A DNA stretch of 64,000 nt from Methylocapsa palsarum. Lineage in GTDB: Bacteria > Pseudomonadota > Alphaproteobacteria > Rhizobiales > Beijerinckiaceae. The notes beneath the pieces were generated by a model. The model had not been told where the DNA came from and did no database searches. It saw nothing but the letters and a program-made list of their open reading frames with translations. The translations under genes were made by a program, and so were the position numbers. Location: the NCBI RefSeq assembly GCF_900114285.1, contig NZ_FOSN01000003.1, positions 1 to 64,000 of the forward strand, read 5' to 3'. Of this stretch, positions 10,501 to 63,213 are shown piece by piece; the first letter of the stretch is position 1, and each line of letters opens with the position of its first letter.

Positions 10501-10616
10501 TGGAGCATATTCCGATCGTATTGAATCAATCCAATCGACAAGACTATGCTCAAGCTTTTGACTCTGGAGCGATTTCTGATCGATCGCATGACTTCATGCG
10601 ATCGGAAAGCGCTCTA
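10501..10616 (-). repeat. 116-bp palindromic element, copy A (reverse orientation)
   Basis: This is a full-length copy. Read on the minus strand it starts TAGAGCGCTTTCCGATCG, has a 24-base near-palindrome (CGATCGCATGA, two bases, TCATGCGATCG), a second stem around GGATTGATTCAATCC and a GGAATATGCTC-type end. Its first three bases (CTA at 10614-10616 on the plus strand) are the TAG stop of the DUF1488 gene. It carries two GANTC sites. Confidence 0.9.
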
Positions 10617-10877
10617 GACGTCGGAGGCTGAAAGCCGGTAATGGCTTTTCCGCTTTTTTGAGTAAGCGGCGCTGGCCGCGGCTTCGATTCGATTACGGTT
10701 GACGTCAAACACGCGCAGCATCGACGCCTCGTCACGATCCGCGAAACGGCTGATTCGGTGAAGAGCCTCCTCCTCGAGGTGGAAGGACACTTCGGTGGAC
10801 GCGTCGTGACCCCAGAAGCAAACGCAATGGCGTGAGGCGTCATAGGTTCGGCTAGCGTTGGGAAAATGAAGGGCCAT
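10614..10877 (-). CDS. DUF1488 domain protein
   Basis: The 87-residue protein has the DUF1488 pattern: FPNASRTYDASRHCVCFWGHD at the N-terminus, then SFHLEEEAL, and FDVNRNRIEAAASAAYSKKRKSHYRL at the C-terminus. The function is unknown; members are small cytoplasmic alpha/beta proteins of proteobacteria. The stop codon TAG is the terminal triplet of the adjoining 116-bp element, so the last residues may have changed when the element arrived. Confidence 0.85.
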   Translation of the reverse strand: MALHFPNASRTYDASRHCVCFWGHDASTEVSFHLEEEALHRISRFADRDEASMLRVFDVNRNRIEAAASAAYSKKRKSHYRLSASDV

Positions 10878-11075
10878 CGGTTTTTCCAGTTCTACACGCG
10901 CCGCGGCGCTTGAAATCTTGTTACGCGTCTATCCTTGCACGGCCGCCGGCTAATGGCGACAGATCAGACATAAGCGCGAATCGTAAAATTTCGAGCGCCT
11001 CCCCTGTGACGGCGGCGTTCTGCGCGCCGCGGACAGAAGCAGCTTCGGACCAAGTCTTGAGCCCAACGGCGGAAT

Positions 11076-11654
11076 TCAGGGTTCCAGCACGGAATCCCAA
11101 TAAAGGTAATCCATCCAGCTGTCGTGCAGGTAATTAGGCGGAAATTGCCGTCCGTTCTGATGCAGGTCGCTGACGGTCGGCTGATAGGGCGTTGTCGCAG
11201 GCCACATCCGCGCTTCGCTCGGAAGCCGGTCGCTCTTTCGCAGATTACAGGTGGAGCAGGCGGCGACCACATTTTCCCAGGTGGTCGTCCCGCCCTTGGA
11301 GCGGGGGATGACGTGATCGAAGGTCAAGTCGTGGCGGGAGCCGCAATATTGGCAGCTGAAGCGGTCTCGGAGGAAAACGTTGAATCGGGTGAAGGCGGGA
11401 TGGCGGGACGGTTTTACGTAATTCTTGAGCGACACCACAGAGGGAAGCCGCATCTCGAAACTCGGACTTCGAACCGTTTTATCGTAATTGGAGACGATGT
11501 TCACGCGGTCGAGAAACACCGCCTTGATCGCGTCCTGCCACGACCACAAGGACAAAGGATAATAGCTCAAGGGCCGGAAGTCGGCGTTGAGGACGAGTGC
11601 CGGACAGGCCTCCGGCGGAACCGTGGGGTGGAAGTGAACCGTCAAATCGGGCAC
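11076..11654 (-). CDS. HNH endonuclease domain protein
   Basis: The 192-residue product has an HNH motif at about 99-142: CQYCG zinc pair, LTFDHVIPRSKGG with the catalytic His, WENVVAACSTCNLRKSD with the second Cys pair. The N-terminal part (ALVLNADFRPLSYYPLSLWSWQDAIKAV) matches the widespread stand-alone HNH family of alphaproteobacteria, thought to be housekeeping rather than a homing enzyme. Its biological target is not known. It is monocistronic. Confidence 0.93.
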   Translation of the reverse strand: MPDLTVHFHPTVPPEACPALVLNADFRPLSYYPLSLWSWQDAIKAVFLDRVNIVSNYDKTVRSPSFEMRLPSVVSLKNYVKPSRHPAFTRFNVFLRDRFSCQYCGSRHDLTFDHVIPRSKGGTTTWENVVAACSTCNLRKSDRLPSEARMWPATTPYQPTVSDLHQNGRQFPPNYLHDSWMDYLYWDSVLEP

Positions 11655-11877
11655 CTCGCTTCAGCGGTTCCGGATTAAAGACTCCGCCCTAATCCGTCAA
11701 ATTGTTTCGATTAAGCGGCGAATCAGCCTGACAGAGGCACATTTCCTCATCTCGATGACAAAGATGTGAAGTCGCGGTCCGGTCTTCCGAGGCGCAAACC
11801 GATTCGCGCTTTTTCACCGGCGAGGCGCACAAGTGAGGGGCGCAAAAGTGAGGCGGGCCCATGGGACGGGCGCGCAT

Positions 11878-12753
11878 TCATCGCGTCGGAATCGGCGTTC
11901 CGCTCCGATAATCGTAGAAACCGCGCTGGGTTTTCCGGCCAAGCCAACCCGCTTCGACATATTTCACGAGCAGCGGGCAGGGGCGGTATTTCGAGTCCGC
12001 GAGCCCTTCGTGCAGCACCTGCATGACCGACAGCACAGTGTCGAGACCGATGAAATCGGCGAGTTGCAACGGACCCATCGGATGATTCGCGCCAAGCTTC
12101 ATGGCGGTGTCGATCGCCTCGACCGAGCCGACACCCTCGTACAAGGTGTAGATCGCTTCGTTAATCATCGGCAGCAGAATGCGATTGACGATGAAGGCGG
12201 GAAAGTCCTCCGAGACTGTGACTGTCTTCCCGAGCCGGGCGACGAGCGCCTTCGCGGCTTCGAAGGTCGTATTTTCAGTCACGATGCCTCGAATGACCTC
12301 AACAAGCTGCATTCGCGGCACGGGATTCATGAAATGGATGCCGATGAAGCGCTCCGGACGGTCCGTCACCGAGCCGAGCCGGGTGATCGAAATCGAGGAC
12401 GTGTTGGAAGCGAGCATGGCGTCGGGCTTCAGCGACGCGCACACGCCGGCGAAAATCTTGCGCTTGATGTCCTCGTTTTCGGAGGCGCTTTCGATGACGA
12501 GGTCGCTGTCGCCGAACGCGGCGTAATCTTGCGCCGGCTTGATCAGCGCTAAAGCCGCCTCGCGCGCGGCGGGTTCGATCTGCTTTTTTTCGACGAGCCG
12601 CGCAAGGTTCGCGTTGATGGCGGCGACGCCGGCCTTGATCCGCTCCTCCGAGATGTCGTTCAGCGCGACTTCGATCCCGGCCATAGCGCAGACCTGGGCG
12701 ATCCCGGAGCCCATTTGCCCGGCGCCGATCACTCCGATTTTGTTAATATCCAT
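11878..12753 (-). CDS. 3-hydroxybutyryl-CoA dehydrogenase
   Basis: It oxidises 3-hydroxyacyl-CoA to 3-oxoacyl-CoA with NAD+ (or the reverse). The 291-residue length is typical. The N-terminal Rossmann motif is IGVIGAGQMGSGIAQV; the SNTSSISIT and GIHFMNPVPRMQLVEVI segments carry the catalytic Ser/His region, and the C-terminal domain is helical with NRILLPMINEAI. It stands 240 bases after etfA on the same strand, the usual neighbour in Hyphomicrobiales, linking fatty-acid or PHB turnover to the electron-transfer flavoprotein. Confidence 0.95.
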   Translation of the reverse strand: MDINKIGVIGAGQMGSGIAQVCAMAGIEVALNDISEERIKAGVAAINANLARLVEKKQIEPAAREAALALIKPAQDYAAFGDSDLVIESASENEDIKRKIFAGVCASLKPDAMLASNTSSISITRLGSVTDRPERFIGIHFMNPVPRMQLVEVIRGIVTENTTFEAAKALVARLGKTVTVSEDFPAFIVNRILLPMINEAIYTLYEGVGSVEAIDTAMKLGANHPMGPLQLADFIGLDTVLSVMQVLHEGLADSKYRPCPLLVKYVEAGWLGRKTQRGFYDYRSGTPIPTR

Positions 12754-12991
12754 CTCAAGCGTCCATAACCGAAACGATGAGCCTGCCCGGTTGATTGAGG
12801 GCGAGGCAAACGCGGGATTTCATCCGATTGTCTGACCGGACCGCGGCGGATTCGACGCATCCGCCCTTCGTTCTAGACCAGACTTCGAATAATTCCAATC
12901 GGGCCGAAGCATTTCCCGCTGGCTGATCCGGTTCAGCGCATCTCCGGCGCGCCCGCTATGGGAGACGAACGGCAAATGGGGCGGTTCGGGC

Positions 12992-13936
12992 CTATCGCCC
13001 GAGCTTCTCCAACTCCTGGTCAAGCGCCGGCAGCACTGAAAACAGATCGCCGACAAGGCCAAAATCGGCAACCTGAAAGATCGGCGCGTCTTCGTCCTTG
13101 TTGATGGCGACGATGACTTTCGAATCCTTCATGCCGGCGAGATGCTGGATCGCGCCGGAAATCCCCACGGCGATGTAAAGATCAGGCGCGACAATTTTGC
13201 CGGTCTGCCCCACCTGCCAGTCGTTGGGCGCATAACCCGCATCGACGGCGGCCCGGGACGCGCCCATTGCTGCGCCAAGGCGATCCGCCACGGGCTCGAT
13301 CAACGAGGAAAAATTCTCCGCGCCCTGCATGCCCCGGCCGCCGGAAATGATGATTTTGGCGGCGCCGAGTTCAGGCCGGTCGGATTTCGCGAGCGCCTCC
13401 GCCTTGAACGCCGAAACCTCAGGACCTGGAACAGCGCCGATCTGCTCGATCGCGGCTGATCCGCCTGCGCCCGCAGCCGGAAACGAAGCGGTTCGCACGG
13501 TGATGACCTTGATCGGGTCGCTGGACCGCACGGTTTGAAGGGCGTTGCCCGCGTAAATTGGCCGTTCAAACGTGTCGGGCCCGACAACCTTGACGATGTC
13601 TGAAATCTGCATCACGTCGAGCAAGGCGGCGACCCTTGGCGTCACGTTCTTCGCCGTCGACGTCGAGGCCGCGACGATCGCCGAATAATGACGCGCCAGA
13701 TCGACGATGAGGGCGGCGAGCGGCTCGGCCAACCCGTGAGCGTAAAGGGGGGCGTCGGCGACCAGAACTTTCGCGACGCCCTGAAGGTTGGCCGCCGCTT
13801 CCGCCGCCGCGGCGACATTCTCGCCCGCGACGAGAACATGGATGGGTTCGCCAAGCGCGGCGGCCGCCGTCAACGCCTTCGCGGTCGCCTCGTTCAGGGC
13901 GCCGTTTTGCGTCTCGGCGAGGAGCAGCACACTCAT
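12992..13936 (-). CDS. etfA: Electron transfer flavoprotein subunit alpha
   Basis: The alpha subunit (314 residues) holds the FAD of ETF and passes electrons from acyl-CoA dehydrogenases to ETF-quinone oxidoreductase. The C-terminal FAD-binding domain shows [36 protein letters not shown] and [19 protein letters not shown]. Its ATG overlaps the etfB stop by one base (TGATG), so the two subunits are made in equal amounts. Confidence 0.98.
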
Positions 13937-14682
13937 CAGATGACCCCGGCGTCTTTGAGCTTGGCGACAAGTTCGGCCGCGGAAGCGACCTTGACGCCGG
14001 CCGCGCGGGCCGGCGGCTCGACGGTTTTCAAAATGGTGAGGCGCGGCGCGATGTCGACGCCGAAATCAGCGGGCGTTTTTTCCTCGATCGGCTTCTTCTT
14101 GGCTTTCATGATGTTGGGAAGCGATGCATAACGCGGTTCATTGAGGCGGAGGTCGGTCGTGACGATGGCGGGCAGGCCGAGAGTCACGGTTTGCGACCCG
14201 CCGTCGACCTCGCGCGTCACATCGACCTTGCCGTCTCCGACTTCGACCTTGGAGGCGAAGGTTCCCTGACCCCAGCCGAGCAGCGCGGCCAGCATCTGGC
14301 CGGTCTGGTTGCAATCGTCGTCGATCGCCTGCTTGCCGAGAATGATCAGACCGGGCTGCTCCGAGTCCGCCACGGCCCGCAACAGCTTGGCGACGGAGAG
14401 CGGCTCGACGACCTGGTCGGTCTTGACGAGAACGCCGCGATCCGCGCCCATCGCCAGCGCGCTTCGGATGGAATCGGCCGCCGCCGCGGGGCCGATCGAG
14501 ACCACGACGACCTCGGCCGCCTTGCCCGCTTCCTTGATTCGCAACGCCTCCTCGACAGCGATTTCGTCGAAGGGGTTCATCGACATTTTGACGTTGGCGA
14601 GGTCAACGCCGGACCCGTCGGGCTTGACCCGGATCTTGACGTTGTAATCGACGACACGCTTCACGGCGACGAGAATCTTCAT
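13936..14682 (-). CDS. etfB: Electron transfer flavoprotein subunit beta
   Basis: The beta subunit (248 residues) binds AMP and docks the dehydrogenases. The start is [19 protein letters not shown], and the signature [26 protein letters not shown] follows. It is first in the etfBA operon. The start region is duplicated: a 16-bp repeat spanning the start codon creates an eight-codon frame that ends in the TGA overlapping the etfB ATG. Confidence 0.98.
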
Positions 14683-14714
14683 CCAAGAGCTCTCTCATTC
14701 TTCATCCAAGAGCT
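14676..14714 (-). repeat. 16-bp direct duplication of the etfB start region with a coupled mini-ORF
   Basis: TCTTCATCCAAGAGCT occurs at 14676-14691 and again at 14699-14714, a 23-bp period. On the minus strand the upstream copy gives ATG and seven further sense codons (MKNERALG) and then TGA, whose bases overlap the etfB ATG (ATGA). Ribosomes ending the mini-ORF would sit on the etfB start. Confidence 0.7.
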
Positions 14715-14879
14715 TTCTTATAAAGAGATCCGCAAAACTGACGATCCGCAAATCCTGGAGGTTCAACCCGGCGGACGGAAAAATTAGGTAGTCGCGCCGA
14801 TCCGTCAAGTCAACCGAACTTGAGCTTGAGGTTGAGCCGCGCTCAAGGGTTTTCCGACCGTCGGCCACTCTGATGGCCT

Positions 14880-15677
14880 TCAGGCGGCGCTGGCCGGAAA
14901 CGGAGTCGTTGGCTTCGTGACGGCCGCGCCGTATCGGGAGTGAGGCGCGCCCTGGAAATTGTAGGCCCCGACATGCGTGAGTTTGCCTTCGGTGTCGAGC
15001 CAGATCTTGCCGCCGATGTCCCGCCATTTCTGGCAGAATCCGAAATCCTCGCTGACGTAGGTGTTGGTGTCTTTGTCGATCATACAGTCGAAGAGAGCGT
15101 AGTTCGCTTCGCCTTTTGCGTTGGAATAGGCATGCGCGCCTTTGTAGCGGCTTTCCGGATAGGCCGCGATCATCCGTTCGACCACATGGCGCTTGATCAA
15201 CATGAAGCCGCCGCCGCAGTAGATCGCGGTGGCGAAGCGTCCCCTGCGCTCCTGCTGATCAGCGGGGCAAAGGGTTCCAACATAAAGCAGCGGCGCGCTC
15301 GCGAAGCTCTCGGCGGAATTCGCCGCGCGCAGCATCGCGGCGTTGCTCCAGTCGATCACCTTCAGGGGGTAGATTCCGGCGACGAAATCCTCGTCGAAGT
15401 TCAGCATGTCCTGAACCTGGCTGGCGTCGAAGGCGATGTCGGCGTCGATGAAAAGAAGATGCGTCGCCTCCGGCGTGTTCAGAAACTGGGTGACGAGCGT
15501 GTTGCGGCTGCGGGTGATGAGGGAATCGTGGCCAAGCAAAGCGAGCGCGACGTCAAATCCGCCGCCGCCCGAAAATTGGAGAAGTGCGAGGATCGATTGC
15601 ATGTAGTGCTGGGAAACGAGCCCGCCGAAGCAGGGCGTTGCGATAAAAATCATCGGCCGTCGTCCGGTTTGCGTCAT
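14880..15677 (-). CDS. Glycosyltransferase-like (GT-A fold) protein
   Basis: The start at ATG 15677 is chosen (265 residues, MTQTGRRPMIFIATPCFGG); a longer in-frame start lacks similarity in its leader. The product shows a nucleotide-sugar-transferase layout: ITRSRNTLVTQFL, then the DxD-like FIDADIAFDASQVQ, and later YCGGGFMLIKRHVVERM and SEDFGFCQKWRDIGGKIWLD, which resemble the acceptor and metal-site segments of family-2-like enzymes. No signal peptide or membrane helix is present, so it would act in the cytoplasm. The sugar and acceptor are unknown. Confidence 0.75.
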   Translation of the reverse strand: MTQTGRRPMIFIATPCFGGLVSQHYMQSILALLQFSGGGGFDVALALLGHDSLITRSRNTLVTQFLNTPEATHLLFIDADIAFDASQVQDMLNFDEDFVAGIYPLKVIDWSNAAMLRAANSAESFASAPLLYVGTLCPADQQERRGRFATAIYCGGGFMLIKRHVVERMIAAYPESRYKGAHAYSNAKGEANYALFDCMIDKDTNTYVSEDFGFCQKWRDIGGKIWLDTEGKLTHVGAYNFQGAPHSRYGAAVTKPTTPFPASAA

Positions 15678-15927
15678 GTCCGTCCCTTGTTGACCATCTG
15701 GGCGTCCTGCGACCCGAAAGTTCGGACCGTCCGGGATCAGCTTTAGTCTTCTGAACCTGCGCCAGGCATGCTCGTTTCGTCGGACAAGGGCAAACGCAAG
15801 GCCGGATAAAAGGCCGGATATTAAGCTTAACGGAAGGTGAATCACCACCCGGACCGGATCGGGGCTATGATGTCTTTGTGCCGCTCGCAACTTCCTCTGC
15901 GCGGCGTTTTGAAGGCGAAGGCGCGCG

Positions 15928-18587: not shown

Positions 18588-20213
18588 ATGGCTGACTATT
18601 ACCCGCTGCTCGCCAGGGCTGTAGCCGCTTTATCGGATTCCACCCCGGAGTCGCGCGCCGCCATCTATGCCCGCGCCCGGAACGCCTTGCTGGGTCAGCT
18701 CAGAAGTCTCGATCCGCCCGTGCCGGAAGCCGACGTCGAACGGGAAAGCCGCGCCCTGCAGGACGCGATCGCGCGCCTCGAGATCGAATTCGCGCCTCCG
18801 TTCGCGAGCGATCCGGCCGTTGAAGACGCGCAACCGATTGCGCCAGAGCCGGGACCGGGTGAGGAGCGTCCGGGACAAATGGGCGGTCCCGAGCCGGAGA
18901 GGCAAGAGCAGGGCCGGACCATTCCGGGCCCGATGACGCCGACGCCGACGCCGACGGAACAAGGCGAGCGTCCTTCGCTGCTCTTCAAGGTCCGGCGGGA
19001 TGCGCCGAGGCCCTCTCCTGAGACGCCGGAGAGCGCGGCCGGGCTTTTGGCGACGTCCGCCAAACAGCCGAGATGGCCTCGCGGACGAGACGCATTGGCG
19101 CCGAAACCGGCCGCACCAGGCGAAGCCGGACCGGGCGGGATTTTCCCTCGCGAGCCGGTTTCGAACGACATTCCCCCCGAGCCAGATGCTTCCGAGCGCG
19201 AAAAGTCGCCCTCCGCACCGGGAGCCTTCGCGCCAGGAGAGGCGCCGCTGCGGTCCGGGGCGGACGAGGCTGAACCGATCGAGCCCGGTTTGGAGGGAGC
19301 GGGTCGCGAACCTCCCGAGGTTTCGCCCGAAGGATCAGCCGCCGACGCCGCCGAGAGGAGCCGTCCCGAAGCGCAGCGCCCCGTCGCGCCGCAACCCCCG
19401 CAGGATTCTCCCGCGCCGAAACGCGGCTGGATTGTCGCGGCGATCGTCGCCGTCGTCGTCGCTCTTGTCGCGATCGCGGCCATCAAGCTCAAGGATCACC
19501 GCGAGGATCTTATCGCCAGAAGTCTCGCCCCGGCGCCCGCGATTGAATCGGGGTCGAGCGGAAAGATAGCCGATCGCATCGGGGCTGGCGACGCGAGTCC
19601 CGAGGGCCAGTCGCCGGCCGAGCCTTCCGATGCGGACGCCGGCGGCGCTGAATCGTCCGTCCCTCCGTTCGTCGCGCCTCGGGCGGCCCTGCTTGTGCGC
19701 GCTCCCCAGGACAACGCCGAGGTCAAAACCTATCAGGGCACCGTGGTCTGGAAGGTCGACAACGTCAGCAGCGGTCCCGGCGCGCCCCTTTCCACCGCGG
19801 TCCGCGCCGAGATCGACATTCCCGAGCAAAAGGTCGAGGCGGTGATGACGCTGCAGAAAAACGATGACGCCACCTTGCCCGCCTCGCACACGATGAAGCT
19901 TCAGTTCGTGTTGCCGCGCGGGAGCGAGTGGCGAGGCGTTCAGCAGATCAAGGTGCCGCAAATGCGGCGCGAGGGCGCCTCGACAGGCGAGTCCCTGAAG
20001 GGAGTTCCGGTTCCGATCGTTGAGAATTCGTTTCTGGTCGGCCTCAATGGCGGCGCCTCGGAGGCGGCGAACCTTGATTTGCTGCGTTCGCGCGAATGGC
20101 TCGATATCCCGATTCTGCTCGGCAACGGCTTCATCGCCAAGCTGACGTTCGAAAAAGGCAAGACCGGGCAGCGCGCGATCGATGACGCCATCGCGGCCTG
20201 GCGGGCGCAGTAG
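18588..20213 (+). CDS. Proline-rich single-pass membrane protein of unknown function
   Basis: The 541-residue product has an N-terminal helical head (1-65), a long disordered Pro/Glu/Arg-rich linker (70-280, including a PTPTPTEQ stretch), one membrane helix (WIVAAIVAVVVALVAIAAI, near 285-303) and a C-terminal soluble domain (about 360-541; RAALLVRAPQDNAEVKTYQG to AAWRAQ). The topology suggests a cytoplasmic linker and an envelope-facing domain. I do not recognise a named family. It begins 44 bases after purA on the same strand. Its TAG stop is the first triplet of a 30-bp element remnant. Confidence 0.8.
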   Translation: MADYYPLLARAVAALSDSTPESRAAIYARARNALLGQLRSLDPPVPEADVERESRALQDAIARLEIEFAPPFASDPAVEDAQPIAPEPGPGEERPGQMGGPEPERQEQGRTIPGPMTPTPTPTEQGERPSLLFKVRRDAPRPSPETPESAAGLLATSAKQPRWPRGRDALAPKPAAPGEAGPGGIFPREPVSNDIPPEPDASEREKSPSAPGAFAPGEAPLRSGADEAEPIEPGLEGAGREPPEVSPEGSAADAAERSRPEAQRPVAPQPPQDSPAPKRGWIVAAIVAVVVALVAIAAIKLKDHREDLIARSLAPAPAIESGSSGKIADRIGAGDASPEGQSPAEPSDADAGGAESSVPPFVAPRAALLVRAPQDNAEVKTYQGTVVWKVDNVSSGPGAPLSTAVRAEIDIPEQKVEAVMTLQKNDDATLPASHTMKLQFVLPRGSEWRGVQQIKVPQMRREGASTGESLKGVPVPIVENSFLVGLNGGASEAANLDLLRSREWLDIPILLGNGFIAKLTFEKGKTGQRAIDDAIAAWRAQ

Positions 20214-20240
20214 AGCGCTTTCCGATCGGAATATGCTCTA
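20211..20240 (+). repeat. 30-bp internal-deletion derivative of the 116-bp element, copy B
   Basis: It has the left end TAGAGCGCTTTCCGATCG joined directly to GAATATGCTCTA, exactly what recombination between the two CCGATCG copies inside the full element would leave. Its first bases are the stop codon of the preceding gene. It sits between convergent genes (pbpC ends 36 bases later). Confidence 0.85.
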
Positions 20241-32359: not shown

Positions 32360-32527
32360 GGGCCGCCTGTTTCCTCTTCTAGAGCGCTTTCCGATCGCAT
32401 GCAGTCATGCGATCGATCAGAAATCGCTCCAGAGTCAAAAGCTTGAGCATAGTCTTCTCGATTGGATTGATTCAATCCCATCGGAATATGCTCTAACGGC
32501 GGGGCGCCGCCCCGACCGTCGGGCCTG
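32360..32527. other. phoB-gcrA convergent gap filled by element copy C
   Basis: Apart from 20 bases after phoB and 32 before the gcrA stop, this gap is the 116-bp element. Confidence 0.7.
32380..32495 (+). repeat. 116-bp palindromic element, copy C
   Basis: This is a full copy with TAGAGC and GCTCTA ends. The first stem reads CGATCGCATG, loop CAGT, CATGCGATCG. GAGTC and GATTC sites are present. It stands between the convergent phoB and gcrA genes. Confidence 0.92.
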
Positions 32528-33244: not shown

Positions 33245-33359
33245 TAGAGCGGTTTCCGATCGCATGAAGTCATGCGATCGCTCAGAAATCGCTCTAGAAT
33301 CAAAGGCTTGAGCATATTCTTGTCGATTGAATTGATTCAATCGATCGGAATATGCTCTA
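33245..33359 (+). repeat. 116-bp-family element, copy D
   Basis: This is a 115-bp copy. The first stem is intact (CGATCGCATGA, AG, TCATGCGATCG). The first GANTC site is GAATC where other copies have GAGTC, so the methylation consensus survives the change; GATTC is also kept. It ends GCTCTAG. Confidence 0.9.
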
Positions 33360-41839: not shown

Positions 41840-42214
41840 ATGGAAAAGACCTCCCTTCCGGAAGATCAAAATGCCGCCGAACCAGTCACTGTGGGAAAAA
41901 TCGAAGGGGCCGACGTCTACAGCCTGGATGGAGAGCCGATCGGCGCGATCGAAAGCCTCATGATCGACAAGCGCAGCGGAAAAATCGCCTACGCGGTCAT
42001 GAGTTTCGGCGGCTTTTTCGGGATTGGCGAAGAGTTTTTCCCGATCCCCTGGGAAAAACTCCACTATGATTCAGACCACGACGCCTTCAAGATAGACATC
42101 AACAAGGACGACCTCCAGAACGCGCCCAAATATCGCGATGAAGCCGCCTATGATTGGTCGCGCGCCGAAGGCCGGAAGATCCATGAACATTATGGTCTGC
42201 CATTTCTGCTCTAG
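41840..42214 (+). CDS. PRC-barrel domain protein
   Basis: The 124-residue product has one PRC-barrel (about 17-90) with VYSLDGEPIGAIESLMIDKRSGKIAYAVMSFGGFFGIGEEFFPIPW, the usual pattern of small soluble PRC proteins of Hyphomicrobiales. Partners and function are unknown; PRC barrels bind RNA or proteins. Its TAG stop is the first triplet of a degenerate 116-bp-family element. Confidence 0.9.
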   Translation: MEKTSLPEDQNAAEPVTVGKIEGADVYSLDGEPIGAIESLMIDKRSGKIAYAVMSFGGFFGIGEEFFPIPWEKLHYDSDHDAFKIDINKDDLQNAPKYRDEAAYDWSRAEGRKIHEHYGLPFLL

Positions 42215-42312
42215 CGGGCTTTCCAGTCGGATGGACTCATCCGGTCGATAACACACCGCTCCCAAGTCAAAGCTTGAGCATAGTCTGATCGATCCGGTCG
42301 GAATGTTTTCTA
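42212..42312 (+). repeat. Degenerate 116-bp-family element, copy E
   Basis: It begins TAGCGGGCTTTCC, keeps AAAGCTTGAGCATAGTCT and ends GGTCGGAATGTTTTCTA, with many substitutions and about 15 bases missing. The first stem is replaced by CGGATGGACTCATCCG. It has lost both GANTC sites. It is apparently an old copy, yet its leading TAG still serves as the stop of the PRC gene. Confidence 0.75.
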
Positions 42313-43697: not shown

Positions 43698-44198
43698 ATG
43701 GCGGTCCGGCTATCCTCTGGCGAGGACGATCTCGAGATCAATCACGAAATCAACGTGACGCCGTTCATCGACGTCATTCTGGTTTTGCTGATCATTTTCA
43801 TGGTCGCCGCGCCCCTTTCGACCGTCGACGTCAATGTCGATCTTCCGGCCTCGACGGCGCAGCCTGCGCAGCGGCCGGACAAGCCCCTGTTCCTGACCGT
43901 CAAATCCGATCTCTCGCTGACGCTCGGCGAAGATCCGGTCCGGCGCGAGGCGCTCGCCGCCGCCCTCGACGCGGCGACGCAGGCTGACAAGGACCAGCGC
44001 GTCTTCGTTCGCGCCGACAAGGCCGTCACCTATGGCGACGTCATGGAAACGATGAATCTGCTCCGGGCGGCGGGATATTTGAAGATTGGGCTGGTCGGAC
44101 TGGAGCTTGGCCAGGACGGCGGCGCGCCGGCCGGCGACAAAAACAAACAGCCGGCTCAGGCCGCGCCCGGTCCGGCGGAGCAAGGCTCCCCGAGATGA
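43698..44198 (+). CDS. exbD: TonB-system protein ExbD
   Basis: The start ATG 43698 follows GAGGCC, four bases after the exbB stop, and gives 166 residues. It has one membrane helix (INVTPFIDVILVLLIIFMV) with the essential Asp in PFIDV, then a periplasmic domain (VRADKAVTYGDVMETMNLLRAAGY). It transmits proton flow to TonB. The C-terminal tail is Gly/Ala/Pro-rich. Its stop overlaps tonB by four bases. Confidence 0.95.
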   Translation: MAVRLSSGEDDLEINHEINVTPFIDVILVLLIIFMVAAPLSTVDVNVDLPASTAQPAQRPDKPLFLTVKSDLSLTLGEDPVRREALAAALDAATQADKDQRVFVRADKAVTYGDVMETMNLLRAAGYLKIGLVGLELGQDGGAPAGDKNKQPAQAAPGPAEQGSPR

Positions 44199-44947
44199 CG
44201 ATGCTGACGGAATCGTTCTTCGAACCGGGCGATGATCGATCCACGCGGCGCTGGATTTTCGCGGGCGCTCTCGTTCTTGCCGTTCACGCGGGATTTCTTA
44301 GCTGGCTGGTCTGGAGATCGCAAACGGGAGCCGAAGGGGCGCCGCCCGAAGCGATCATGCTTGAACTTGATCCGGTGGCGGCGTCGCCGCCTTCTGAAAC
44401 CCAGGTCGAGGCTCCGCCGGGGCCGCTGATGACGGAATCGCAGCCCGAAGTCGTCGAAGAACCGGAGCATTTGGACATTCCCGACCTGCCGCCGGTTCCG
44501 AAGGCCGCCGCGGTCCTGACGCCGGCGCCAAAGGTGAAACCGGTCAAAAAGCCGATAAAAATTCCGGAGCGCCACGTGGTGACGCCGACCCATGAGAAAC
44601 CGGCCCCCCGAACCACGGCTCCGGCGCATGCCGCCGCTTCGTCCCGCGCCGCCGCGGCGGGGCGGAAAGGCTCGGCTGGATCTTCCGTCTCGCCATCCGC
44701 CTGGATGAGCGAGGTCCACGCCCGTATCCAGGCGCATCACAGCTGCGCGGCGGGCGCGAGAGGAACCGCCAAGGTCGCCTTCTCCATCGATCGGGGAGGG
44801 CATATTCTCGGGGTCAGTCTGATCGCCAGCTCGGGTTCGGCGGCGCTGGATCAGGCGGCGGTCTCGACGGTCCGCCGCTCGAACCCGCTGCCGGCGCCGC
44901 CGCCACAAGTCGGCGGCTCCATTTCAATTCCCGTCAGCTGCCATTAG
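44195..44947 (+). CDS. tonB: Energy transducer TonB
   Basis: The 250-residue product has an N-terminal membrane anchor (about 20-38), a long Pro/Val/Lys-rich linker (KVKPVKKPIKIPE) to span the periplasm and a C-terminal TonB domain (about 168-245; WMSEVHARIQAHHSCAAGARG to PPPQVGGSISIPV) that contacts outer-membrane receptors. The stop TAG is the first triplet of element copy F. Confidence 0.93.
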   Translation: MTMLTESFFEPGDDRSTRRWIFAGALVLAVHAGFLSWLVWRSQTGAEGAPPEAIMLELDPVAASPPSETQVEAPPGPLMTESQPEVVEEPEHLDIPDLPPVPKAAAVLTPAPKVKPVKKPIKIPERHVVTPTHEKPAPRTTAPAHAAASSRAAAAGRKGSAGSSVSPSAWMSEVHARIQAHHSCAAGARGTAKVAFSIDRGGHILGVSLIASSGSAALDQAAVSTVRRSNPLPAPPPQVGGSISIPVSCH

Positions 44948-45060
44948 AGCGCTTTCCGATCGCATGAGGTCATGCGATCGATCAGAAATCGCCCCAGAGT
45001 CAAAAGCTTGAGCATAGTCTTCTCGATTGAATTGATTCAATCCAATCGGAATTTGCTCTA
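44945..45060 (+). repeat. 116-bp palindromic element, copy F
   Basis: This is a full copy with TAGAGC/GCTCTA ends; the TAG at 44945-44947 is the tonB stop codon. The first stem is CGATCGCATGA, GG, TCATGCGATCG. Two GANTC sites are kept. Confidence 0.92.
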
Positions 45061-46690: not shown

Positions 46691-46806
46691 TAGAGCGCTT
46701 TCCGATCGCATGAAGTCATGCGATAGATCAGAAATCGCTCCAGAGTCAAAGGCTTGAGCATAGTCTTGTCGATTGGATTGATTCAATCCGATCGGAATAT
46801 GCTCTC
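46691..46806 (+). repeat. 116-bp palindromic element, copy G
   Basis: This is a full-length copy with left end TAGAGC and right end GCTCTC (A to C at the last base). One base of the first stem is changed (GCGATAGATC). GAGTC and GATTC are present. It ends three bases before the rpmF stop, which is on the other strand. Confidence 0.9.
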
Positions 46807-47955: not shown

Positions 47956-48888
47956 ATGGGGGACGGGGTGACGTCGGCGGAATTCGAAGCCAGATTGAAG
48001 GCCGCCGCCGATGCGACAGAGACCATGCTGGACGGGCTTCTTCACCGCGCGCCTCTGCCGGGGGAAACGGCGCGGCCGCCGCGTTTTCTCGAAGCGGTCC
48101 GCTATTCGTCGCTTGGGGGCGGCAAGCGCCTCCGGCCGTTTCTGCTGATCGAGACCGCGCGCCTGTTCGGAATCGAGGGCGACGGCGTCGCTCGCGCGGC
48201 CGCCGCCGTCGAAATGATCCATTGCTATTCGCTGGTTCACGACGATCTGCCCGCCCTCGACAACGACGATCTGCGCCGCGGCCGGCCGACGACGCATCGG
48301 GCCTATGACGAAGCCACGGCGATCCTCGTCGGCGACGCTCTCCTGACCTACGCCTTCGATGTGACGTCGGACCCTGCGACCGATCCCGACCCCGCGGTGC
48401 GGATCGAACTCGTTCAAGCTCTCGCGCGGGCGGCGGGCCTTGGCGGCATGATCGGCGGCCAGGTTCTGGATCTCGAAGCCGAAACAGCCAGCGAGCCTCA
48501 TAAGGCCGAGTTCGTGATTCAGCTCCAGGCCATGAAGACCGGCGCCCTGTTGAGCTATTCCGTCAACGCCGGCGCGATTCTCGGCCGGGCGGACGGCCCG
48601 GCGCGAGCGGCCCTCGCCAAATACGGTCAGGCGCTTGGCGCGGCCTTTCAGGTCGCCGACGATATTCTCGACGTGGAGGCGGACGAAGCAGCGCTCGGCA
48701 AGCGCGCGGGAAAGGACGCCGATCGCAACAAAGCCACTCTTGTCGCGGCTCTCGGCCTTGAGGGGGCTCGCGAAAGACGAGACAGGCTCGCCGCCGCGGC
48801 GATCGCGGCGCTGGATTTGGCGCCCAACCGCGAGGCGGCCGAAATCCTGAAAGAGGCCGCGCGTTTCGTTGCGATCCGCAAGAGCTGA
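47956..48888 (+). CDS. ispA: Farnesyl diphosphate synthase (short-chain polyprenyl synthase)
   Basis: It condenses DMAPP and IPP to farnesyl diphosphate. The 310-residue product has the first Asp-rich motif VHDDLPALDNDDLRRG, the GGGKRLRP substrate-binding stretch and the second motif FQVADDILDVE. It is followed 34 bases later by a DUF1345 gene. IspH, an earlier isoprenoid enzyme, lies about 4 kb downstream. Confidence 0.95.
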   Translation: MGDGVTSAEFEARLKAAADATETMLDGLLHRAPLPGETARPPRFLEAVRYSSLGGGKRLRPFLLIETARLFGIEGDGVARAAAAVEMIHCYSLVHDDLPALDNDDLRRGRPTTHRAYDEATAILVGDALLTYAFDVTSDPATDPDPAVRIELVQALARAAGLGGMIGGQVLDLEAETASEPHKAEFVIQLQAMKTGALLSYSVNAGAILGRADGPARAALAKYGQALGAAFQVADDILDVEADEAALGKRAGKDADRNKATLVAALGLEGARERRDRLAAAAIAALDLAPNREAAEILKEAARFVAIRKS

Positions 48889-53036: not shown

Positions 53037-54005
53037 ATGTCCGTCAAGCCGAAACTCACCGTTTACCTCTGCGCTCCGCGCGGTTTTTGCGCGGGGGTCG
53101 TGCGCGCGATCGACGCCGTCGAGGAAGCGCTCCGGATTTACGGCGCTCCGGTCTATGTCCGCCACGAGATCGTTCACAACAAATATGTGGTGGAGGGGCT
53201 CAAGGCGAAGGGCGCGATTTTCGTCGAAGAGCTTGACGAAGTTCCGAACACGGCGCAGCCCGTCATCTTTTCCGCGCATGGCGTTCCAAAGGATATCCCC
53301 GCGGAGGCCGAGTCACGGAACATTTTCGCCATCGACGCCACCTGTCCGCTGGTGACGAAAGTGCATCGCGAGGCGGAACTGCATCACCGGCAGGGACGGC
53401 AGGTTCTTCTCGTCGGGCATGCCGGTCATCCGGAGGTGGTCGGCACCCTTGGTCAATTGCCGCCCGGCTCCATCGTGCTCGTCCAGACGCTGGCCGATAT
53501 CGCCGATCTGGAATTGGCGGACGAGGGCAAGCTGGCCTATGTCACGCAAACGACTTTGTCGATCGACGACACGCGCTGCATGGTCGACGCGCTGAAGCGC
53601 CGTTTTCCGAAAATCGTCGGTCCGCATCGCGAGGATATCTGCTACGCGACCACCAATCGCCAGGAGGCGGTGAAACGCGTCGCGCCGACCGTCGACGCGA
53701 TGCTGGTCGTCGGCTCGGCGAATTCGTCGAATTCGCAACGGCTCAAGGAAGTCGCCGAGCGCTCCGGCTGCAAGCTGGCCCGGCTCGTGCTGAGGGCCTC
53801 CGACGTCGAGTGGGAGCTGTTCGACGACATTACGTCACTCGCGATCACCGCCGGCGCCTCCGCGCCCGAAATTCTCGTCGAAGAGATCATGGACGCCTTC
53901 GCCCTGCGTTTCGATCTTTCCATCGAGACGGTTTCCACGGCGGACGAAGGCGTTTTCTTTCCGCTGCCGCGCGAATTGCGCTCTCCCGCGGGATCGGCCG
54001 CCTGA
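53037..54005 (+). CDS. ispH: 4-hydroxy-3-methylbut-2-enyl diphosphate reductase
   Basis: This is the last enzyme of the MEP pathway, making IPP and DMAPP. The 322-residue product has the three iron-sulfur Cys: Cys12 ([11 protein letters not shown]), Cys103 ([11 protein letters not shown]) and Cys202 ([10 protein letters not shown]). It is followed 26 bases later by miaA, which uses its product DMAPP to modify tRNA. Confidence 0.97.
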
Positions 54006-54031
54006 GGCGGATCCAGACCGGATCCTTTCCC

Positions 54032-55009
54032 GTGAAAGCCATTTCAGCAATTTTGCTCGCCGGGCCGACGGCGAGCGGCAAGTCGGCTCTGGCGCTGCGG
54101 CTCGCCTGCGCTTTCAACGGCGTGCTGATCAACGCGGATTCCATGCAGGTCTATCGCGACCTGCGGCTGCTGACGGCGCGCCCCAGCGAGGCGGAAGAGG
54201 CGCAGGCGCCGCACGCTCTTTTCGGCCATATCGACGGGGCGCTGAATTATTCGGTCGGGCTTTGGCTGAAAGACGCGGCCGGCGCCCTTGAAGACGCCAG
54301 GCGGCGAGGGCTTTTGCCGATTTTCGTGGGCGGGACGGGACTTTATTTCAAGGCCCTGACGCAGGGGCTCTCCGACATTCCACAGGTGCCCGAAGACGTC
54401 CGCGCAAGGGTGCGCGCGCGGGCGCAAAATGTTCCTGTCGAGGTTTTGCATGCGGAGCTTGGAAGGCGCGATCCGGACATGGCCGCGCGCCTGCGGCCGA
54501 CCGATCCTCAGCGGATCTTGCGCGCGCTCGAAATTCTCGAGACGACCGGAAAAAGCCTCGCCTCGTTCCAGATCGAACGCGAGCCGCCTGTTCTTGACGC
54601 ATCGGGCGCGCTCGCGCTGTTTCTAGCGCCCGGCCGGGAGATCCTCGCGCAAAGGATCGACGCGCGTTTCGACGCCATGCTGCAGGCCGGCGCTCTTGAG
54701 GAGGCGAGGGCGCTGCGCCGGCGCGGCCTCGACCCGGCGCTCCCGGTAATGCGCGCCCATGGAGCACCCCGCCTGATCGCATATCTCAATGGCGAATTGT
54801 CCCTGGCGGAGGCGGCGGCGAGCGCCAAGCTTGAAACCCGCCAGTACGCCAAGCGGCAATTCACCTTCGCGCGAAGGCAATTGCCATTGTTTCGTTGGGT
54901 CACGGAGCAGGAGGCCGAAGCGCAGGCGCGAGCCGCGCTTGTTAGAGCGCTTTCCGATCGCATGACGTCATGCGATCGATCAGAAATCGCTCCAGAGTCA
55001 AAAGCTTGA
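54032..55009 (+). CDS. miaA: tRNA dimethylallyltransferase, with C-terminal tail encoded by a repeat element
   Basis: MiaA transfers the dimethylallyl group to A37 of tRNAs that read UNN codons. A GTG at 54032 is the likely start (an earlier frame runs through ispH). The P-loop is GPTASGKS (11-18), with INADSMQVYRDL and the C-terminal RQYAKRQFTFARRQLPLFRWV region. After ARAALV the frame enters element copy H and continues through it, adding RALSDRMTSCDRSEIAPESKA before TGA 55007. The insertion has replaced the natural C-terminus. The conserved core appears intact, so the enzyme is probably active. Confidence 0.93.
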   Translation: MKAISAILLAGPTASGKSALALRLACAFNGVLINADSMQVYRDLRLLTARPSEAEEAQAPHALFGHIDGALNYSVGLWLKDAAGALEDARRRGLLPIFVGGTGLYFKALTQGLSDIPQVPEDVRARVRARAQNVPVEVLHAELGRRDPDMAARLRPTDPQRILRALEILETTGKSLASFQIEREPPVLDASGALALFLAPGREILAQRIDARFDAMLQAGALEEARALRRRGLDPALPVMRAHGAPRLIAYLNGELSLAEAAASAKLETRQYAKRQFTFARRQLPLFRWVTEQEAEAQARAALVRALSDRMTSCDRSEIAPESKA

Positions 55010-55058
55010 GCATAGTCTTCTCGATTGGATTGATTCAATCCGATCGGAATATGCTCTA
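54943..55058 (+). repeat. 116-bp palindromic element, copy H
   Basis: This is a full copy whose first stem is a perfect 24-bp palindrome (CGATCGCATGACGTCATG...). It lies between convergent miaA and the RMD1-family gene. The miaA frame reads through it. On the other strand its last three bases (CTA, 55056-55058) give the TAG stop of the RMD1-family gene. Two GANTC sites are present. Confidence 0.93.
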
Positions 55059-56114: not shown

Positions 56115-56160
56115 GTTGCCCGATTGTCCCAAGCCGAACGTTAAAGGCCGGAGCGAAGAC

Positions 56161-57921: not shown

Positions 57922-57925
57922 CGAC

Positions 57926-58486: not shown

Positions 58487-58548
58487 CTTTCGCGCCGAAC
58501 TCGCGCGTACGCGCCGCGCGCTTTGACCGCGGCGCGGCCGCGGTGTAG

Positions 58549-59619
<1,071 letters not shown>

Positions 59620-59634
59620 GCGCTCTTCCACTCC

Positions 59635-59655
59635 GCCGCCTGACTGGCGGCTTTT
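59635..59655 (+). terminator. Rho-independent terminator after ilvC
   Basis: GCCGCC (59635-59640), loop TGACT, GGCGGC (59646-59651), TTTT. An 8-bp hairpin (CCCGGCGC 59658-59665 with GCGCCGGG 59672-59679) follows at once and may act as a second stop. Confidence 0.65.
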
Positions 59656-59980
59656 GACCCGGCGCGTCGTAGCGCCGGGCTTGGCGATGGTCGAACCCGA
59701 TCCAGGGGAGGGCCGCCGCTTTTTGGCGGGTGGAATAGCGTCCTCGCCTCAATGATCGCCGCCGTCTCCGACGCCCGCTTCCATGTCCGCCTCAAGGCGA
59801 ACGTGACGGCGCCGACATCGACGAGCAGGGTCAAGACGTTGCGCATGCCGTCCGGACCGACGCCCGCAACCCTTGCGTGTTCATGATATTGCCTGCTTGC
59901 GTGATTATTTGATCGTCTCCACCATTTCGTCGCCGCTTTTCTCCAATGAGAGGAGATCAGGCGAGGGAAGGAGTTTCTGG
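59656..59980. other. Intergenic region ilvC to beta-helix gene
   Basis: It holds the second hairpin and then no supported gene. The ribosome binding site AAGGAG (59969-59974) of the next gene closes it. Confidence 0.5.
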
Positions 59981-62900
59981 ATGCTGATTGCGCGCCATGC
60001 GATTGCGTATCTGGCGATTGGGTGTCTGGCGATTGCCTGTCTAGCGTTGCAGCCCGTCGCCGCCTCGGCCCAGGAAAAAGACGCGAGGCCTTCGCCCGGC
60101 GTTCCGAAGGCCGACGTCTATGTCAGTCCTTCCGGCAGCGACGCCTGCAACGGTTCGCGCGCGGGGCCCGGAAAAGACGGGTTTCCGAACTGTCCGGTCG
60201 CCACGCTAGACAAGGCGCGAGCCATCATTCGCGCTAAGATCTCGGCGAATCCAGCGGCGAGCTATCTGGTTCTGTTGCGCGGCGGTCATTATTTCCAGAC
60301 CGGTCCGGTGGTGTTTAATACGCTGGACAAGGTCGCGGACGCTGGCGCGAACGGCGCGCCTCAAACAAATTACGTCACCTACGCGCAATACCTGTCCGAG
60401 GTTCCAGTGATCGACGGCGGCCGTCTCGTGACCGGCTGGACGGTCCGGCCGGATGGCGTATGGACGGCCAAGGCCCCCGGAACATTTCCGGCGACCGGGG
60501 CGAACGCGGCCAATTATTTCGCCTACATGTGGGCCGAGGGGCCGGCGGGCGAACATCGCATTTGGCATCCGGTGCGGCCGCAGCGCGGCGACCACGACTG
60601 GTTTCATGTTGAGTCCGCGCAGCCAGCGACCTATGGCGCCGGCGTCCAGGTTTCGCAGTCGGCGGCATTCAACGCTTTCAGCCCGAATATCACGGTCGAG
60701 AACGGTTTTGCGTTTTGTGGCGGCACTCGGGTGCGGTTTGGCGGCGCGCCGCCCGCTCCTTTCGTGGCTGGAAAACCTTACCTCTCGATGAACTGTCCGA
60801 CCAACAACACGCTGCAACTGCGCGAGGAAGGGAGCTCCGCGCGGATAATTCCGCAGGCGAGCGGATCCGCGCCGATCTATTATGACGAGGTGCGCGCGCT
60901 CTATTACGGCGACGAAAGCAATCCCATTCCGCGCGTCAATGTTTTCGGCGTCAACGCGGGCGGCAATTGCGCCGCGATCTCGGGATCCGCCGACACCGTA
61001 AGCAGCCCTGCTTTTACGGTTTCCAGAATGTCCGGCGCCGCCCCTTTCGACGCGAAAATGACCCAGATTACAATCGCGGGCGTCAGCTACACGATTGCCT
61101 CGGTCCTTGACGACTCGCATCTCGTCGTGACGTCAGACCCCGGCGTACAGAAGGGCGCGGCCTTTTCCTCGGCGCCATCGGCCGAAGCTTGCGCGAGCTG
61201 GCCGCTGACGGGCGACGAAAAGATCGAGCTTGGAAATATCGGACGGCATGTCTATCCCGTCGCGCATATCTCAGGGCAGGCGGTGACATTGACGAGCCAT
61301 TCCTTCGCCGCCGTCGACTCGTCGCAGCACAATGTCTTGATCGCGGGTTCGCCGTGGCGCCGGATGAATTTCGAAACGGATTGCTGCGCGCCGGGAGAGA
61401 TGTATCTCAACCGGAAGACGGGCGCGCTGACCTATCGTCCGCTCGCTGGCGAAACGCCGGCCAACACGACGATCTACGCTCCATACGCCAAGTCGCTCGT
61501 TCGGATAAGCAATTCGAGGAACGACGGTTCGCCCGTAAGCGCCTCGGCGCTGGCCGGAAACCTCAGGTTTTCAGGCCTTCAATTCAAACATACCAACACA
61601 AGCGTATTCACGCGCGAAGTCTCTCCGATGGGAGCGACAGGCGGCATGTCGGACGGGATGGCGGCCGCCTACATCGGATATCCGGCCTTCGCGCTGCTCG
61701 GATCGCATAACGTCGTCGTCGATCACGCCGTTTTTTCCGGTCTCAGCGAAGGCGCTTTCGCCGGCGTTCTTGGATCCAACTACTGGACAATCAGCAATTC
61801 GACGTTCCGCGACATAGGAACCTACGGCGTCCTCGGCGGCGGCGGATATTCCCAGTATGTTGATGGAACGTTCCGGGGAGGCGATCTGCCGCAGACGCCT
61901 TTCTGGAAGCATTATGCCGAGCAGGCCTATGGCGCCAACAACGTCAACGACGGTCATTTTACGATCTCGAACAATCGATTCGAGCAGACCGGCGTCCTGC
62001 AAAGCGGACCGGCTTCGATCGCGCTGCTCGCCTGGGATCATGCGACGGTCACGCATAATTCCGTCATCGATGCTGCGAGATGGGCGTATGTTCTGGGAAT
62101 AAGCGTCATCGACAATTCGATGGCCCGGATCGAAACCAGGAGCGGCGTTTTCACCTACAATCGCGCGGATGATTGCGGAACCGAACGCACGATCTACGGC
62201 CTTCGCGTCCCCGGCGCGGGCTTGTCGTCCGATTTCGGCTGCTGGTATAGCGCGGGAAGCCTCGGCGGCGACAATGTCACGCCCTCGCATCGGACAGTGG
62301 AGCATCACAACGTCATCAACGGAGCCTGGTCGTCGAAATGGCCGACCACGCAGAGCGGATCGTTGACGCCGACGGGGTTCGACGGAGTTTCATGCTATTT
62401 CGATTTGAACACATCGTTCGGGATCGATTTCTATCAGAACATTTGTTCCGGCAGCCAAAATCGGATGCTGCAATGGACCGGGATGTGGAACGACAGTTTT
62501 CACGACAACATTTTCTATGCGAATTACACGCGCGGACTGCAGGCCACAGGCCGCGAGCCGCGGGTCGGAAACCTGATCATGTTGCCGGCAAAGCAGTTTA
62601 CGACCGCCGGAACCTATTCGGGCGTTCAGCCCTGGGCGGTTTTTCAGAAGAACATCGTCTCGTTCAACATGAATGATCCCGCGAAACCCGCTTGGGTGGA
62701 CGGATGGGGCGCCATTGCGGGGAACCCGGCGAACCTTGGGAAAAACTGGAGCCCTCGCGAGATTTCAACCGCAAGCAATCTCTACTACCGGGCCGACGCG
62801 CCGCTCACGCATTTCGGGCAGTCGACGCCGTTCGAGGCGTGGCAGGCCGCGCCCGATGAACATACCGGCGCGACCCAGGATATCGGCTCAATCGTGCAGA

Positions 62901-63094
62901 AGGATCCGAATTTCGCCGATACGAGCTGGCGCAGCCATCAGCTTTTCAAATCCAGCCCGAGCGAGGGATCCGTTTTGTGCGCCGATCGGACCCATGGCGA
63001 GCAGTATAGTCCCGCCTGCGCGCTGCCGGGCGCCTCGGCGTCGCCGGAGACGGGGTTCATGCTCTGGGATCCGACGACAGCGGGCGCGCATTAA
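59981..63094 (+). CDS. Large secreted parallel beta-helix protein
   Basis: The start ATG 59981 has AAGGAG about seven bases upstream and gives 1037 residues; an in-frame ATG at 59873 lacks one. A signal peptide ends ASAQ (about residue 31). DVYVSPSGSDACNG is the start typical of right-handed beta-helix proteins, and repeated short strands with N-rich turns run through the middle (HNVVVDHAVFSGLSEGAF, NYWTISNSTFRDIG, HFTISNNRFEQTG, HATVTHNSVIDAARW, NFS/FDFYQN). This fold suggests a polysaccharide lyase or a carbohydrate-binding surface protein; I see no clear catalytic motif. The gene stands alone and an element copy follows it. Confidence 0.85.
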   Translation: MLIARHAIAYLAIGCLAIACLALQPVAASAQEKDARPSPGVPKADVYVSPSGSDACNGSRAGPGKDGFPNCPVATLDKARAIIRAKISANPAASYLVLLRGGHYFQTGPVVFNTLDKVADAGANGAPQTNYVTYAQYLSEVPVIDGGRLVTGWTVRPDGVWTAKAPGTFPATGANAANYFAYMWAEGPAGEHRIWHPVRPQRGDHDWFHVESAQPATYGAGVQVSQSAAFNAFSPNITVENGFAFCGGTRVRFGGAPPAPFVAGKPYLSMNCPTNNTLQLREEGSSARIIPQASGSAPIYYDEVRALYYGDESNPIPRVNVFGVNAGGNCAAISGSADTVSSPAFTVSRMSGAAPFDAKMTQITIAGVSYTIASVLDDSHLVVTSDPGVQKGAAFSSAPSAEACASWPLTGDEKIELGNIGRHVYPVAHISGQAVTLTSHSFAAVDSSQHNVLIAGSPWRRMNFETDCCAPGEMYLNRKTGALTYRPLAGETPANTTIYAPYAKSLVRISNSRNDGSPVSASALAGNLRFSGLQFKHTNTSVFTREVSPMGATGGMSDGMAAAYIGYPAFALLGSHNVVVDHAVFSGLSEGAFAGVLGSNYWTISNSTFRDIGTYGVLGGGGYSQYVDGTFRGGDLPQTPFWKHYAEQAYGANNVNDGHFTISNNRFEQTGVLQSGPASIALLAWDHATVTHNSVIDAARWAYVLGISVIDNSMARIETRSGVFTYNRADDCGTERTIYGLRVPGAGLSSDFGCWYSAGSLGGDNVTPSHRTVEHHNVINGAWSSKWPTTQSGSLTPTGFDGVSCYFDLNTSFGIDFYQNICSGSQNRMLQWTGMWNDSFHDNIFYANYTRGLQATGREPRVGNLIMLPAKQFTTAGTYSGVQPWAVFQKNIVSFNMNDPAKPAWVDGWGAIAGNPANLGKNWSPREISTASNLYYRADAPLTHFGQSTPFEAWQAAPDEHTGATQDIGSIVQKDPNFADTSWRSHQLFKSSPSEGSVLCADRTHGEQYSPACALPGASASPETGFMLWDPTTAGAH

Positions 63095-63097
63095 GGC

Positions 63098-63213
63098 TCG
63101 AGCGCTTTCCGATCGCATGAAATCATGCGATCGATCAGACATCGCTCCAGCGTCAAAGGCTTGCGCATATTCTTATCGATTGGATTGATTCAATCCGATC
63201 GGACTATGCTCTA
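63098..63213 (+). repeat. 116-bp palindromic element, copy I
   Basis: This is a full-length copy with slightly worn ends (TCGAGC left, GCTCTA right). The first stem is intact with loop AA. One GANTC site is lost (GCGTC) and GATTC is kept. It begins three bases after the beta-helix gene's stop. Confidence 0.9.

Follow-up and report, generated by a model that had tools for sequence, protein, structure and literature searches.

What has scattered a palindromic element of about 116 bp through the genome of Methylocapsa palsarum, a member of a genus of methane-eating bacteria, and what preserves its shape? The question arises from a stretch of 64,000 nucleotides (here, the window), in which a sequence-only reading had listed nine places between positions 10,501 and 63,213 and had offered two accounts of them, recent MITE-like spread and selection on structure. 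The analysis described here indicates that both accounts hold in part.

Direct reading of the letters located all nine places, and the seven near-full copies proved to be 115 or 116 bp long. One of these, at 10501-10616 between predicted convergent genes, lies on the minus strand, opposite in orientation to the other six: 32380-32495, 20 bp downstream of the stop of a response-regulator gene; 33245-33359, which is 115 bp long; 44945-45060, which opens with the TAG stop codon of a TonB-like ORF (44195-44947); 46691-46806, 99 bp past a transaldolase gene; 54943-55058, between the convergent genes miaA (IPPT domain) and a DUF155 gene; and 63098-63213, 3 bp past the stop of predicted gene 59981-63094. 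The two remaining places, also on the plus strand, are a degenerate copy at 42212-42312, with its first three bases forming the TAG stop of predicted gene 41840-42214, and a 30-bp derivative at 20211-20240, in which the left element end is fused to the right end at CGATCG and which begins with the TAG that stops predicted gene 18588-20213. The stems and outer inverted repeats are as first described. The TAGAGC/GCTCTA ends said to be shared occur in most copies, but the 63098 copy starts TCGAGC and those at 46691 and 10501 end GCTCTC and GCTCCA, respectively; likewise the loop of the first stem does vary while the stem is kept, but more than the two bases proposed are involved (CATG-CAGT-CATG in the 32380 copy). 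Elsewhere in the window, ARAGORN calls a tRNA-Arg (TCT) at 48106-48186 inside the well-scoring predicted gene 47956-48888, so that one of the two calls is doubtful.

A search of the whole genome (4.1 Mb in 78 contigs) with the first-stem pattern, allowing up to two mismatches, revealed 111 forward and 103 reverse places, whereas the reversed control pattern found none. These 214 places exclude both a family limited to the window and one confined to a single duplicated segment. Among the 14 remaining genomes of the genus, three hold one, two and four places at the same stringency, and eleven hold none. For closer analysis we defined a 451-kb sample, comprising the whole of the window contig (C26) and positions 1-200000 of contig C29, in which nhmmer returned 41 rows of copies and fragments; the 30-bp derivative brings these to 42, two of them (C26:153260 and 153310) probably representing one split copy, and 28 of the copies are full-length. 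The 30 stem places in this sample never overlap between strands and are thus not double counts. A larger set of 58 full copies favours good left hairpins, because many of its loci were found through the left-stem pattern; the 28 sample copies are free of that bias. Copies also stand in tandem, two or three to an array and with a period of 111-114, at four loci (L345 to L348; C47:205.7k, C43:45.1k, C37:78.6k and C40:151.1k) and at C29:120710-120937. Their junctions read GCTC directly abutting GAGC, GCTTGAGC or GCTC-CA-GAGC, so the TA between copies has often been lost or changed.

The repeated unit is also dispersed beyond the genus, being present in at least 37 of 297 genomes sampled from the order and in at least 28 of 123 genera; 37 is a lower bound, given strict filters and a ceiling of 19 candidates scored per genome. 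Among 18 distant loci measured (a set that leaves out L259 and L264), the right end was found in 15, of which nine are exactly 116 bp and six are 112-115 bp long. Three genomes of the same family (G019, G055 and G060) and a Methylosinus plasmid keep the left unit with what appears by eye to be a different right hairpin. A plasmid of Methylocella tundrae carries a full-length homologue (79%); the plasmid search yielded five records, from Methylocella and Methylosinus, and none when the Rhizobiales-like copy L255 served as query. A search of phages gave a single weak partial match, and an Rfam scan of the window at gathering scores gave no match. One M. aurea locus (L236:620-740) shows a palindrome of about 40 bp, bounded by TAGAGC and GCTCTA and unlike the family, adjoining an old left unit.

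Each 116-bp copy is composed of two inverted, related hairpin units of about 52 bp and a linker, an arrangement that the first reading had missed. The consensus folds into hairpins at positions 3-50 and 66-114, each with a 4-nt bulge on the linker-facing arm. Folding of two copies as DNA divides the right bulge into two parts, and the three strands that were folded as single-stranded DNA gave z = -6.3 to -7.6. In the 54943 copy the left unit occupies 54943-54994 on the plus strand (stems 3-12/41-50 and 13-22/27-36, bulge 37-40), and the right unit, 55006-55058, is matched by the left-unit model on the minus strand and carries GATTC, an instance of GANTC, across its loop. The left-unit covariance model matches right units on the opposite strand with E-values of about 1e-8 and weaker. 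The left unit itself, read on the wrong strand, scores about 40 bits against its own model, approximately equal to the score of the right unit, because it is nearly palindromic. The plus-strand matches listed include just a single right unit, with 24.8 bits, so what the two units share is their plan and orientation, and the sequences suggest a loose kinship. GAGC begins both the outer and both the inner ends. GANTC stands at position 53 in 48 of 58 copies and at position 90, across the right-arm loop, again in 48 of 58; copies contain it at 16 per kb, compared with 2.9 per kb for the sample. The left-hairpin loops AAGT and ACTT are reverse complements of one another, as though the palindrome had been flipped in some copies.

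The flanks of the element point to a preferred target. Among the 58 full copies the base before the terminal TA (position -1) is C in 39, T in 16, A in three and G in none, and the base after it at the other end (+1) is G in 42, A in 12, T in three and C in one; the 21 M. aurea copies agree (-1: C 13, T 5, A 2, G 1; +1: G 15, A 5, C 1), and the consensus is YTAR, with Y before and R after the terminal TA. The TA itself is a consensus feature rather than an invariant one, being present at the left end of 41, the right end of 39 and both ends of 28 of the 58 copies, the two ends varying independently. Terminal TA appeared more variable than the interior, and ends of the CTAG type seemed to have changed more often than TTAG or CTAA: 28 of 75 had changed, compared with 3 of the 27 ends of other types (p = 0.014), in a manual classification covering 102 of 116 ends. 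CTAG occurs in the sample at 0.47 of its expected frequency, and avoidance of this tetranucleotide is our own explanation, post hoc and proposed after the data were seen, for the lost terminal TAs.

Comparison with related genomes showed sites that are filled here and empty elsewhere. For the 54943 site, none of 12 orthologous stretches contains an element at E <= 0.01 and both flanks align in seven; TCAATG is found in five of 11 aligned stretches (G002, G001, G010, G011 and G005), corresponding to TTAATG in the window when a single TA is kept, and M. aurea is one base longer just upstream. At C29:20718 the stop codon of the upstream gene is a TAG made of TA and the G of the element; among six relatives, this gene stops in the same codon with TAG in three, TAA in one and TGA in one, the sixth being unaligned. 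At the TonB-like ORF, which ends CAT-TAG when filled and CAT-TAA when a single TA is kept, the evidence is weaker, because in a protein alignment the M. aurea ORF stops a codon further on, as CAT-TGA. By these cross-species comparisons, two empty sites fit a duplication of TA and the third fits more weakly, though one TA could be the element's own rather than a duplicate. The flanks of the 32380 copy are 191 bp apart here and 73 bp apart in M. aurea, where no element was found. Altogether, orthologous stretches at five sites and near tonB include two of 39 with a diverged copy, neither at a matching position; at the sites compared the copies are species-specific insertions. M. aurea has amplified subfamilies of its own, different from those here, and copies up to 99% identical stand at unrelated sites. 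A search for intragenomic empty sites with the joined flanks of the 58 copies gave none that was usable: of 13 rows spanning the joint, 11 were the locus itself or a tandem neighbour and two were 60-bp matches to other loci. In these respects (unrelated sites occupied, the same sites empty in relatives, YTAR targets and separate subfamilies in M. aurea) the proposal of MITE-like spread is borne out in part.

With genes predicted on the sample by a home-made Markov finder, and overlaps with gene ends counted as intergenic, all 42 rows are intergenic: 19 between convergent, 17 between tandem and six between divergent genes. By comparison, convergent gaps contribute 13% of the intergenic bases, which gives p = 4e-7, and 65 of the 334 gene pairs, which gives p = 1e-4. 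Further, and likewise missed in the first reading, the end of an element is the stop codon of a predicted neighbour in 13 of the 42 rows (14 ends, one copy serving both of its convergent neighbours), such that about one third of the sampled copies, judged on predicted genes, sit exactly within a stop codon; the TonB-like ORF escaped the gene finder and therefore lies outside this count. Stop codons make up 39 of 458 (8.5%) free YTAR sites, defined as non-coding or stop, and the enrichment is significant (p = 3e-5, or 2e-4 with occupied sites added back). Predicted genes of the sample have 75 TAG stops, 14 of which stand at elements, and none of seven further stops that lie inside elements is TAG. 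Because the target TA and the first G of the element together make TAG in either orientation, insertion need not break a gene. In the 54943 copy the right end is the stop of the DUF155 gene, and the miaA frame (53810-55058) extends about 21 codons into the element, so that MiaA may have a new C-terminus here; among the matches listed, the nearest to this protein is that of M. aurea, at 77%.

Several described repeats resemble this family. One such group, the CIR attributed to Chen and Shapiro (2003), comes from Caulobacter, which has up to 21 copies of a CIR. As presented in the available part of a review, CIR (Caulobacter CcrM-associated intergenic repeats) are intergenic, with two arms, a linker, GANTC at a loop and TA termini; the same review, of 2007/8, marks their target-site duplication as unknown and holds that more information is needed on their mobility (PMC2229807). 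Set against that partial account, the likeness is broad: CIR are about 110 bp long, their two arms being long inverted repeats joined by a linker, here 116 bp with two hairpins; GANTC lies at or partly in the terminal loop of one arm, here at position 90; location is intergenic, as in all 42 rows here, although the 54943 copy adds codons to miaA; and both have TA termini, here as consensus only, and alphaproteobacterial hosts. Since the CIR features examined are all present, we file the family with CIR as a further member, a likeness by description and not by CIR sequence. Distinct from CIR are the TA/YTAR evidence, the inverted-unit plan, the insertion into stop codons and the 214 places found under a strict pattern. 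RUP of Streptococcus pneumoniae, to the extent that its published descriptions are accessible, has 107 bp, about 110 copies, a TA target, enrichment between convergent genes and IS630-like ends, its inverted repeats being highly similar to those of a resident IS630 (PMC3049150, PMC2229807). The family shares with RUP its short size, TA target, IS630-like ends and convergent-gene enrichment; it differs in having only GAGC ends and a partial pattern in common with IS630, and in a double-arm plan that those portions of the RUP literature do not describe.

The genome does contain candidate mobilising enzymes. Four matches to PF13358, the IS630 catalytic domain, were found, three of them above cut-off, and one (L164) lies within TAGAGC and GCTCTA ends 1,048 bp apart, in two overlapping frames. 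Elements of this IS630 type, 1,048-1,056 bp long with the same termini at YTAR, comprise L164 and, elsewhere in the genus, L168, L170, L173, L181, L189 and L193, three of which (L170, L181 and L193) are found as copies within a single genome. Agreement with either outer end of the repeat is modest at best: 11 of 15 bases, in the pattern GAGC-N5-CCGAYC, for L170 at both ends and L189 at one, and 6 to 10 of 15 for the remaining IS ends compared. The ends of L164 share TAGAGC with the repeat but match at only 6 to 8 of the first 15. The sequence-only reading had suggested looking for an autonomous parent with the same ends. None of the IS630-type elements found in this genome or in the genus carries the repeat's full ends, and a search of the 451-kb sample for such a parent gave, apart from the 30-bp derivative, nothing but stray matches to the ends at two places, C26:107169 and C26:186998. 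In Sinorhizobium meliloti, a repeat of pSymB (L275:2120-2219 and L277:25545-25644) has the same two-palindrome plan and its first 14 bases, TAGAGCGGGATGAG, are common to one end of the IS630-type element L168 of the Methylocapsa genus, which suggests that such repeats and such insertion sequences share ends elsewhere too.

We therefore favour, with a probability of roughly 0.57, the interpretation that this is a CIR-type element, mobile but non-autonomous, targeted to TA and mobilised in trans by an IS630-type transposase. By this mechanism a DDE transposase whose own element has TA-GAGC ends would move the repeat in trans into TA; insertion at YTAR would duplicate the TA, in line with the two compared sites, and a weaker third, that read correctly with one TA kept; intergenic and convergent placement would result mostly from the purging of harmful insertions; and the hairpins would persist as a requirement of the moving machinery or of a host protein. 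What weakens the IS630 reading most is that 12 of 20 unit-bearing genomes searched show no match to PF13358 (three of five at E <= 0.001; nine of 15 at E <= 1e-8), so that the elements persist, and may have moved, in its absence. Also against it are the lack of full ends on any IS630-type element found and the restriction of TA at both ends to 28 of the 58 copies.

That weakness lends itself to a different enzymology, in which, as in REPINs, a tyrosine transposase of the RAYT/IS200 type would recognise hairpins in single-stranded DNA and so mobilise an inverted pair of them. Inverted bulged hairpins with a spacer correspond to the REPIN/BIME plan, and the accessible portions of reports on REPIN/BIME and tagged REP families describe inverted pairs of palindromic units (PMC3733652; see also PMC3116915 and PMC2817692). 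Strong stem covariation would also suit such a process, but the family has TA ends and no GTAG tag, since G occupies position -1 in none of the 58 copies here and in just one of the 21 from M. aurea; its bulged units are larger, about 52 bp against the 20-40 bp given for REPs in the part of that source available (PMC3733652); and symmetric YTAR with a retained TA fits a DDE enzyme. We regard this alternative as unlikely.

The covariation just mentioned bears on the second of the original accounts. Across 30 left-unit sequences from this and other genomes, 93.9% of 570 cells are paired and 44 are double-changed (12.8 when shuffled); across 29 right-unit sequences, 93.4% of 608 cells are paired and 65 are double-changed (18.4 when shuffled). 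Both measures were reached in none of 500 shuffles for either arm, a control inflated by the relatedness of the sequences; for further pair types the left arm did not beat the control, as 67 of 500 shuffles reached its count. Sliding the partners by one to three columns reduced paired cells to 23-46%. Alignment A2 excludes L161 and L213 and includes L076, and alignment A3 excludes seven loci of other length or register (L248, L249, L252, L256, L260, L262 and L263) as well as L250, L253 and L257, whose right end was not found, so that A3 counts lean to well-formed copies. Within the genome the pattern is different. In the 28 sample copies, stems diverge from consensus by 2.6% (left) and 5.2% (right), the left loop by 15%, the linker by 9.5% and the bulges by 2.7% and 9.8%, but the right loop (three positions) by only 3.6%, which misfits a stem constraint; and among 2,320 pair cells in the 58 copies only five show double compensatory changes, while 95 are broken. 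Covariation is hence chiefly seen when lineages are compared, a pattern that suits selection on source copies, or arm-to-arm repair, better than selection on each copy. On covariation alone, selection and arm-to-arm repair within the palindrome are inseparable. Selection on structure, as first proposed, is supported in part, by strong between-lineage covariation in both arms, with the right loop as an exception within the genome.

A rival reading is a domesticated host element, in which the double hairpin would be kept as an mRNA 3' structure, a transcription barrier or a methylation-sensitive site. Such a role might be read from the GANTC sites at two fixed positions and their density, the 19 of 42 rows between convergent genes, stems better conserved than the left loop and linker, and the constancy of length in distant copies. 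Sites themselves are not conserved, however (two of 39 orthologous stretches with a copy, none at the matching position); a scan for intrinsic terminators found none at the three copies within the stretch covered; purging would itself produce a convergent bias; and compensatory change inside the genome is scarce, all of which makes domestication quite unlikely. That the family is the relict of an extinct mobile lineage, whose copies now multiply through recombination, conversion and tandem slippage alone, would accommodate the tandem arrays and the failure to find a matching parent, but identity of up to 99% at unrelated sites and the different M. aurea subfamilies imply fairly recent transposition, and we consider it improbable.

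With the IS630-mobilised, TA-targeted element as the preferred reading, a more general relationship can be contemplated. RIME1 of Sinorhizobium, an intergenic mosaic repeat of rhizobia attributed to Osteras (1995), is reportedly similar in size and palindromes, and the pSymB repeat is probably RIME1. The pSymB repeat resembles the Methylocapsa family in its TAGAGC start, first palindrome, GGAATC and second palindrome, but its sequence is another one; the unit model R1 found nothing above chance in 250 kb of S. meliloti pSymB (two rows, E-values 0.4 and 0.7). A tentative proposal, which we think has the odds against it, is that CIR, RIME1 and the Methylocapsa family form one ancient alphaproteobacterial class of double-hairpin transposons, in which a scaffold of about 116 bp would be nearly fixed and the stems rewritten, the machinery would read hairpins rather than stem sequence, and host stop codons would serve as safe harbours, the terminal G rebuilding TAG in both orientations. 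In titles and the beginnings of abstracts, with subscription journals thinly covered, we found no earlier report of the family, of an IS630 link or of insertion into stop codons.

Alphaproteobacterial genomes commonly carry short double hairpins between their genes. How these move is an open matter in the portion of the review available (PMC2229807). Testable claims on it now follow from the sites found empty in relatives, from insertion at YTAR, from the resemblance to IS630-type elements ending in GAGC and from the insertions into stop codons. For Methylocapsa palsarum itself, the family rewrites the ends of genes, supplying stop codons to predicted neighbours and lengthening the frame of miaA.
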